The notes below the pieces were generated by a model. That model saw only the letters and a program-made list of their open reading frames with translations. It had not been told where the DNA came from and searched no databases. A program made the position numbers and the translations under genes. Source: Emticicia sp. 21SJ11W-3 (GTDB taxonomy: Bacteria > Bacteroidota > Bacteroidia > Cytophagales > Spirosomataceae). From it: 64,000 nt of DNA. Below, in pieces: positions 14,467-36,698 of the stretch. Within the stretch, counting starts at the first letter, position 1. The number at the start of each line of letters is the position of its first letter. The stretch spans positions 1,550,001-1,614,000 of the forward strand of contig NZ_CP092074.1 of the NCBI RefSeq assembly GCF_024138715.1, written 5' to 3'.

Positions 14467-14474
14467 TACCTTTG
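14467..14474 (+). promoter_or_regulatory. Possible -7 box of the btuB-type operon
   Basis: TACCTTTG fits TAnnTTTG and lies about 7 bases before the first riboswitch bases. A TTG at 14442-14444 is 22 bases upstream, slightly more than the spacing seen elsewhere in this window. Confidence 0.5.
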
Positions 14475-14480
14475 CAACAG

Positions 14481-14660
14481 TTTTAGGTGCCTTATACAGC
14501 TTCCGATAGTTGTTTCAAGGCTTAAAAGGGAATCCCGTGTAAACCGGGAGCTGTCCCCGCAACTGTAAGTTTCTTGAGTGCATTTCAACTGCATGGCCAC
14601 TGTTATACGGGAAGGCCGGAGATGCTGAAACGAGTCAGGAGACCTGCCCAAAGCTATCCT
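14481..14660 (+). ncRNA. Cobalamin (adenosylcobalamin/B12) riboswitch
   Basis: Conserved core elements appear in order: AGGTGCC near 14485, AAAAGGGAA at 14524-14532, CTGTCCCCGCAACTGTAA around 14551-14568, GGAAGGCCGGAGATG after 14609, and the B12 box GAGTCAGGAGACCTGCC at 14632-14648. The expression platform is probably the stretch 14655-14682, where ATCCT can pair with AGGAT just at an ATG. It precedes a TonB receptor and lipoprotein, so it should repress them when B12 is plentiful. Confidence 0.95.
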
Positions 14661-14679
14661 TATTTGCGCTTTACGGAGG

Positions 14680-14733
14680 ATGAAGCCAACTGAGCGACAG
14701 ACTATCATTCATTTTACATGTTTAATTAATTGA
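14680..14733 (+). CDS. Candidate 17-residue leader ORF overlapping the btuB-type start
   Basis: ATG directly after GGAGG opens a 17-codon frame (MKPTERQTIIHFTCLIN) whose TGA (14731-14733) overlaps the TTG (14730-14732) that must start the TonB receptor. The layout would allow translational coupling. No protein evidence is visible and the frame could be chance. Confidence 0.35.
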   Translation: MKPTERQTIIHFTCLIN

Positions 14734-19684: not shown

Positions 19685-19698
19685 AGTAAAATTGTTTA

Positions 19699-19713
19699 TG
19701 CAATAATGTTGCA
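19699..19713. promoter_or_regulatory. Fur-family-type operator, site A
   Basis: TGCAATA-A-TGTTGCA: inverted repeat with one mismatch to the perfect form found at 36555-36577. On the minus strand it overlaps TATATTTG, a perfect -7 box for the DUF3299-like gene, so binding should block that promoter. The spacing TTGCAA-N5-TTGCAA recalls Fur-family (Nur/Zur-type) boxes. Confidence 0.6.
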
Positions 19714-19736
19714 AATATAGTCAGAGAGATTTATTT

Positions 19737-19753
19737 TTGCATCATTGTTGCAA
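19737..19753. promoter_or_regulatory. Fur-family-type operator, site B
   Basis: TTGCATCA-T-TGTTGCAA, one mismatch from a perfect 17-bp palindrome. It lies 23 bases from site A and about 70 bases upstream of the MerC-like gene, over the likely -33 region of the divergent promoter. Confidence 0.6.
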
Positions 19754-36281: not shown

Positions 36282-36554
36282 AATTGGGTGAGCGATTGAA
36301 GTTTGAAAGATGAAATACTGTAATGTAAAAATGAAAAAAAACTGCACACTAACCAATTTATCTCCTGAATTTTGCCCGTTATGGGTTAAATCCAGAGCCA
36401 TTTGCATGGGCAGATTAAAATTTTCTTTGGATAAATGATTTTTAAAAATAGATAAAAATACGCATAGTTTGGCTTATGCTCGACAAAAGATTGTTTTTTA
36501 GCGACTAACCGAAACGTATAATTACTATTTGGGAGGGTTTATGCTATAAAATTA

Positions 36555-36577
36555 TTTTTGCAACAATGTTGCAAAAA
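36555..36577. promoter_or_regulatory. Perfect 23-bp Fur-family-type palindrome (site C)
   Basis: TTTTTGCAACA-A-TGTTGCAAAAA: 11-bp arms around one central base with no mismatch. It is the perfect version of sites A and B at 19.7 kb. The TTG at 36569-36571, which is the -33 element of the promoter that follows, lies inside its right arm, so a bound repressor should prevent transcription of the small RNA. Confidence 0.75.
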
Positions 36578-36599
36578 TAAAAATTAACACCTACTTTTG
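36569..36599 (+). promoter_or_regulatory. Promoter of the candidate small RNA
   Basis: TTG (36569-36571), exactly 20 bases, TACTTTTG (36592-36599): perfect match to the Bacteroidota -33/-7 pattern with the same spacing as rpsU and the SRP RNA. The expected start is about 36605. Confidence 0.72.
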
Positions 36600-36604
36600 T
36601 ATTG

Positions 36605-36698
36605 TAAAACCAACAGGTAGGTTTTTATCAGTAGAGATACTGTTTATAGATGTTTTTATTGTGAAATCCGGAGGTTGCTGACCTCCGGATTTTTATTT
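36605..36698 (+). ncRNA. Candidate metal-regulated small RNA (~94 nt)
   Basis: It lies between the promoter above and a strong terminator. It contains no open frame beyond four codons (ATG at ~36650 ends at once). A 5' hairpin AAAACC/GGTTTT (36606-36611, 36620-36625) is followed by a single-stranded AU-rich stretch and the terminator hairpin, a layout seen in regulatory RNAs such as RyhB. The next plus-strand gene starts 200 bases after the terminator, so this is not a plain 5' leader. Target RNAs are unknown. This is a prediction from signals only. Confidence 0.55.
36664..36698 (+). terminator. Strong intrinsic terminator of the candidate small RNA
   Basis: Perfect 12-bp stem AAATCCGGAGGT/ACCTCCGGATTT (36664-36675, 36681-36692) with loop TGCTG, followed by TTATTTT. 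No protein gene precedes it on the plus strand, which is what points to a stand-alone RNA. Confidence 0.85.

Follow-up and report, generated by a model that had tools for sequence, protein, structure and literature searches.

A short locus in the Emticicia source genome is, on balance, probably a stand-alone non-coding RNA gene that is repressed by zinc-loaded Zur, with an RNA that most likely pairs in trans and, independently of Hfq, adapts the proteome when zinc is short. It lies in a window of 64 kb, the whole stretch of DNA that was analyzed (G000:C1:1550001-1614000; the genome is a single contig of 5,177,490 bases). Four carriers of the RNA were found: the source genome, Emticicia sp. BO119 (G001) and the MAGs C1_MAG_00018 (G009) and EMPMRC01. 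The features of the locus, in window positions, are given below together with two sites of the same class elsewhere in the window.

36552-36580, no strand assigned: predicted Zur-type operator, a perfect palindrome of 29 bp whose class is also found 5' of zinc-type genes
36558-36574: core of the palindrome, TTGCAACAATGTTGCAA, 17 bp
36569-36571, plus strand: TTG, the -33 promoter element, within the palindrome
36592-36599, plus strand: -7 promoter element TACTTTTG (Bacteroidota consensus TANNTTTG)
36604-36698, plus strand: predicted non-coding RNA of about 95 nt, its start placed from the -7 element
36606-36625, plus strand: 5' hairpin with stem AAAACC/GGUUUU and a loop containing AGGUA
36615-36627, plus strand: conserved stretch AGGTAGGTTTTTA, in the form common to the four carriers AGGTAGGTTTTWA
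36645-36658, plus strand: conserved stretch TATAGATGTTTTTA, with the same letters in all four carriers
36663-36698, plus strand: intrinsic terminator with a 14-pair stem, a loop of 3 and a T tract (stem-loop 36663-36693)
19698-19714 and 19737-19753, no strand assigned: two more palindromes of this class, 5' of a MerT/MerC-like gene (ATG 19823) and a divergent 157-aa frame

The palindrome, TTATTTTTGCAACA-A-TGTTGCAAAAATAA, had been reported in a preliminary description as perfect and 23 bp long with 11-bp arms; perfect it is, but it spans 29 bp and its arms extend to 14 bp. It is the sole palindrome in the window with arms of at least 11 bp and a spacer of 0-1, and 100 first-order Markov resamples of the window contained a mean of 0.02 and a maximum of 1 of that size. 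With up to three mismatches, the 17-bp core matched six times in the window (three sites, each on both strands) versus 0.51 expected. The overlap of the palindrome with the -33 TTG of a consensus promoter, likewise described before, was confirmed, as the TTG lies inside the palindrome and is followed after exactly 20 nt by the -7 element (TTG-N20-TACTTTTG). The promoter pattern by itself is not rare, since TTG-N19-21-TANNTTTG occurs 11 times in the window. With the -7 element numbered as in F. johnsoniae (PMC6847099, from which the consensus was also taken), transcription would start at about 36604. Zinc-loaded Zur on the palindrome would cover the TTG and thereby block RNA polymerase; when zinc falls, Zur would leave and an RNA of about 95 nt would be made, ending at its own terminator.

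To the other side of the palindrome, both the source genome (start 36281, minus strand) and BO119 have a TldD-like gene that runs divergently from the RNA. We regard it as very improbable that the palindrome controls this protease gene and that the plus-strand transcript is incidental. The location of the palindrome between the two and the PmbA/TldA metallopeptidase domains of the TldD-like protein would suit such an explanation, but no -7-like element was present at N19-21 from the palindrome on the minus strand. Furthermore, the TldD-like gene is found in all 11 genus genomes, yet among the upstream stretches read (a part only for G004) the source genome and BO119 alone have the palindrome, within one mismatch, together with the RNA; five other upstream regions have only matches with up to four mismatches in scattered places. 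The syntenic TldD upstream regions of G002 and G008 are without the cassette. The TldD upstream regions of the 11 genus genomes all contain an AGCGAC box after a T-run (window ~36494-36506; by eye, and for G004 from the box list), with surroundings that vary. Upstream of TldD in G008 (L107), a stretch aligned to the middle of the RNA (AGTAGAAATA) is either a doubtful remnant of the cassette or chance.

Across the whole genome, the 17-bp core was found at 14 places with up to two mismatches, compared to one for a reversed control, and at 40 versus 12 places with up to three. Five of the 14 contain a TTG that serves as the -33 element of a TTG-N19/20-TANNTTTG promoter, and these belong to the RNA, the MerT/MerC-like gene, a TonB receptor, a ZigA-like GTPase and a lipoprotein; the palindrome-promoter fusion is one design that is used for four protein genes and the RNA alike. 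The better sites adjoin a COG0523-type GTPase (CobW domains), TonB receptors and a membrane protein with weak MerT matches that sits beside a small His-rich protein, as well as frames named by eye as oxidoreductase-like and as a further lipoprotein-like protein. The best NCBIfam model for the GTPase was ZigA (E 1.2e-168, 561 bits, with a cut-off of 600). The recurrence of the palindrome class at a metal locus at 19.7 kb, noted earlier, was reproduced at 19698-19714 and 19737-19753. In other genera of the family, the palindrome was found 5' of a frame beginning like the ZigA-like protein at no fewer than three loci (L007, L021 and L027; by eye). The -33 region of the ZigA-like gene in the source genome lies inside a long inverted repeat with arms of about 25 nt (by eye) and a Zur-type core (G000:C1 ~3770240-3770293; L035, L043).

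Three FUR-family proteins are encoded in the genome. For one of them (L051, 139 aa) the best solved relative is the zinc uptake regulator FurB of M. tuberculosis, a weak match at 5e-6, and the best NCBIfam model is Zur, which is also weak (5e-7, 29.6 bits) and far below the cut-off of 167. Another (L049) adjoins an apparent TonB receptor (by eye). Because the palindrome class precedes the ZigA-like chaperone, the TonB receptor, the MerT/MerC-like gene and the lipoprotein, and because one Fur-family protein is weakly Zur-like, the metal is most likely zinc and the regulator Zur, as judged from gene context and weak homology. The earlier proposal of metal-responsive control, which had left the metal as a guess, can be narrowed by this context to a probable response to zinc.

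No frame of 40 aa or longer overlaps 36605-36698, in agreement with the approximately 94 nt without an open frame described before, and the same stretch folds at -33.5 kcal/mol (z -6.0), a value equaled by 0 of 200 shuffles. The 5' hairpin was present as described; the terminator, previously credited with a 12-bp stem, has 14 pairs when G-U is counted, followed by a T tract. Known RNA families were rejected as an explanation, as a scan of the locus gave no Rfam family at gathering score (best sub-threshold match 22.9 bits versus 58.7 needed). The sole Rfam match in the window was a cobalamin riboswitch (107 bits, 14468-14665, plus strand) 5' of a frame starting at 14730. A terminator-like stretch resembling that of the RNA (E 9e-6, 29 bits with the covariance model R1 described below) was seen 3' of a Zur-boxed lipoprotein-like gene at G000:C1:1656502-1656585 (L245).

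That the product is instead a very small protein appears extremely improbable. One ATG does lie within a conserved stretch (ATGTTTTTA), but the frame following it differs in each carrier, with four codons in the source genome (stop at codon 5), 17 in G009, three in EMPMRC01 (stop at codon 4) and 79 aa in BO119, where it runs antisense to a hydrolase gene. With the frames after the conserved ATG not being conserved, this candidate was rejected. The locus reads, as far as its sequence can tell, as a genuine and probably Zur-controlled non-coding RNA, for which a RyhB-like function is hypothetical.

When the 161-base cassette was compared with 98 related genomes (its own included), BO119 was the sole near-full-length outside match among the matches listed (78%). 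A second, shorter and more diverged form of the RNA was found past a palindrome in G009 by reading the sequence by eye. The gapped pattern of the two conserved stretches occurred in three of 222 family genomes and its reversed control in none. A covariance search, which the preliminary description had proposed, was run over the same 222 genomes with model R1 and returned 113, 107 and 71 bits in the three genomes that built the model, with the next best match at 38. Matches at E <=0.5 were obtained in 40 of the 222 genomes, and those of 38 bits or less include the genus members G003, G006 and G008. A strong RNA match is limited to three of the 11 genus genomes and three of the 222 family genomes; in the other eight genus genomes no strong match was found. 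EMPMRC01, a MAG close to G009, was added as a carrier by a search of a species collection. Spread beyond Emticicia was also considered with this search, in which the gapped pattern returned six stretches. Three were BO119, C1_MAG_00018 and EMPMRC01, and the other three (Lachnospiraceae, Lachnoclostridium and Bacillus) are without the palindrome and were taken as chance, as was a single match in a viral contig.

All four carriers retain the two conserved stretches (13 and 14 nt) and have a TTG-N20 followed by TANNNTTG. The earlier reading had been made dependent on palindrome, promoter and terminator being conserved together. This is the case in BO119, where the palindrome differs from the core at one position, the promoter reads TTG-N20-TATATTTG and the terminator is strong, but holds only in part for the two MAGs, which retain the RNA core. 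In these a better palindrome (two mismatches) sits further upstream, the TTG lies in a second, degenerate box (four mismatches by eye), the -7 element TAATATTG departs from the consensus by one base, and the terminator has a weaker hairpin, which was not called by the terminator scan. The folding of the BO119 RNA had a z of -3.6; that of G009 (z -2.1, 6 of 200 shuffles as good) and EMPMRC01 (z -1.6, 13 of 200) was unremarkable. Three of the 14 stem pairs of the terminator are changed on both sides among three genomes, a covariation that, in these three sequences, showed no clear excess over shuffles (26 to 93 of 500 as high). The hairpin loop and 3' arm, AGGUAGGUUUUWA, are constant even though the 5' arm is altered in the MAGs, and TATAGATGTTTTTA, which forms part of a second hairpin in the source genome and BO119, has no pairing partner in the fold of G009.

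The comparison of the source genome with BO119 bears on whether the locus is a relic, i.e. a Zur promoter and a short terminated transcript left without function after a gene was lost or moved, which we find rather improbable. Its patchy presence would fit a relic, as would G002 and G008, with their syntenic but cassette-free TldD upstream regions and the doubtful remnant in the latter. However, the two RNAs agree in 79 of 92 columns (86%) versus 46/96, 36/70 and 28/64 (44-51%) in sequence beside the cassette, and the 13-14-nt stretches persist even in the diverged MAG copies. The corresponding values were 33/54 for box and promoter and 80/102 for the stretch adjoining TldD.

The surroundings of the RNA in the MAGs raise a different possibility, namely that it belongs to a Zur-controlled TonB receptor gene as its 5' leader and forms an attenuator hairpin, that it still has this role in C1_MAG_00018 and EMPMRC01, and that it stands alone in the source genome and BO119 as a leader-derived sRNA or idle. 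In G009 a divergent ZigA-like gene is followed by the Zur-type boxes, the RNA and a co-directional TonB receptor, with 88 nt between the hairpin and the receptor ATG and no TANNTTTG in between, and the T tract of the hairpin is short (CTTTTC) and uncalled as a terminator. The RNA of EMPMRC01 is likewise located between a ZigA-like gene and the start of a co-directional TonB receptor, recognized from its first codons only. The G009 receptor is 72% identical over 395 aa to a receptor of the source genome that has a separate Zur box and no RNA. This orthologous receptor, on the other hand, has a Zur-type promoter with just 51 nt from -7 to ATG, which leaves no room for the RNA. The gene that follows the RNA in BO119 is convergent, and its stop codon lies about 15 nt from the end of the RNA, so that there is no gene for the RNA to lead into, and between the source genome and BO119 the RNA is kept but the downstream sequence is not. 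We consider the leader explanation unlikely, though a serious alternative, and rate a free trans-acting RNA above it because conservation falls on the RNA itself and BO119 has nothing to lead. The preliminary description of a Fur-family operator fused to the promoter of a terminated non-coding transcript stands at the level of sequence, but its stand-alone character is doubtful in the two MAGs, where the TonB gene follows. To judge from these arrangements, the RNA is best described as a module, either free or attached.

Returning to the free RNA, both conserved stretches look like pairing sites, and pairing in trans with mRNAs through AGGUAGGUUUUWA and UAUAGAUGUUUUUA is its most likely mode of action, which would adjust the proteome to zinc shortage. 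Hfq gave no match in any of the 11 genus genomes in a search that was positive in 5 of 14 control genomes including E. coli; any pairing would therefore be Hfq-free.

A computed target search, also suggested beforehand, was carried out with the complements of the two conserved stretches (up to one mismatch) in three carrier genomes, and no target passed the controls. Complement sites were no more numerous than reversed motifs (141 versus 132 and 53 versus 62). After six self sites were dropped, 9 of 188 sites were located 3-8 nt ahead of the start codon (ATG) of a frame with 100 aa or more, as opposed to 0 in the opposite orientation. The share was lower for shuffles that keep the A-rich start, with 20 of 1347 sites before an ATG (17/1129 and 3/218), and for full shuffles, with 3 of 571 and 3 of 168; these shuffles were run on about 0.62 Mb of non-randomly chosen DNA and with the first motif as a 12-letter version. 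The Poisson tail of 0.002 for the share of start sites is too kind, since orthologues enter the count twice and the phylum typically has A-rich starts (PMC6847099). Four of the nine start sites are in the source genome and belong to a type I phosphodiesterase, a member of the DinB family, a protein whose amidohydrolase match is weak and below the cut-off (first 197 aa scanned) and a Pfam-less protein (first 198 aa scanned); some of the start-site genes are of a metalloenzyme type. It speaks against the phosphodiesterase that its site is also present in G008 and nearly so in G002, both without the RNA, and similar letters in G003, G006 and G009 look like the end of an upstream frame (by eye). 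The amidohydrolase-like candidate is weakened by a leader that is alike across the genus. The DinB site is missing in G002 and G008 and has a weaker form in the carrier BO119 (by eye). Duplex energies of the four sites were ordinary, ranking 18, 43, 14 and 3 of 95 background starts. As neither the evolutionary nor the energy controls were supportive, no target is named. Separately, ACATCTA was noted 5' of the type I phosphodiesterase start codon in seven Emticicia genomes (L350-L355, L357), sometimes as the apparent end of an upstream frame (by eye).

The locus had been compared to RyhB-type RNAs. A terminated RNA under a Fur-family operator is what it shares with them; with no target passing the controls, the comparison holds as an analogy only. 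Like the Fur-controlled iron-sparing sRNAs RyhB, PrrF, NrrF, FsrA and IsrR, it has an operator overlapping its promoter and would be expected when the metal is short, whereas its operator and regulon point to zinc and Zur rather than iron and no Hfq gene was found; the sequence comparison with these RNAs was through Rfam only. The RNAs s-SodF and RsaC derive from the ends of other transcripts. They are tied to nickel and manganese regulators (Nur in Streptomyces and MntR in S. aureus, respectively; PMC9294342), i.e. to other metals and regulators than the Emticicia RNA. RsaX20 of Staphylococcus aureus is an sRNA gene with a Zur motif 5' of it that is co-expressed with Zur-regulon genes; it belongs to another phylum, the likeness is one of description, and its function is given as 'possibly associated with metal homeostasis' (PMC5826253). 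Regulatory sRNAs of the same phylum include GibS, which is reported to target translation initiation regions (PMC7366714), and Rfp18, which reportedly affects metalloprotease mRNAs (PMC9723704); the available text of these two papers reports no tie to a Fur-family operator.

A table in a 2022 review enters 'NR' (none reported) for a Zur sRNA and partner sRNAs for iron, manganese and nickel regulators, and the same review anticipates that more metal-sparing responses depend on sRNAs, including one to zinc (PMC9294342). According to a B. subtilis Zur paper, no zinc-sparing response of the FsrA/RyhB type is reported for that organism, and zinc is spared by other means elsewhere (PMC5007448). The Zur review PMC6103462 uses neither of the terms 'small RNA' and 'sRNA', and the open PMC literature yielded, among the papers listed, neither a Zur-controlled sRNA of Bacteroidota nor anything on Emticicia together with small RNA. 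A metal sRNA controlled by a Fur-family protein is a known kind, and the open PMC literature, as far as its available text goes, does not establish one that responds to zinc through Zur.

A bolder version of our reading, which we put forward as speculation and hold to be unlikely as a whole, is that of a zinc-sparing sRNA that would be the first of its kind: repressed by Zur, independent of Hfq, in the Bacteroidota, and pairing with the translation starts of zinc-using enzymes. It would exist both as a gene of its own and as a leader, ending in a terminator, of a TonB receptor under Zur control, and would bring about uptake and sparing from one promoter. The locus is a short, exactly placed and testable candidate for a zinc sRNA in a phylum where sRNA work is young. 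If the reading is true, the coexistence of free and leader-like forms of a single conserved RNA would illustrate how an sRNA of the metal response can arise from, or become, a 5' leader.
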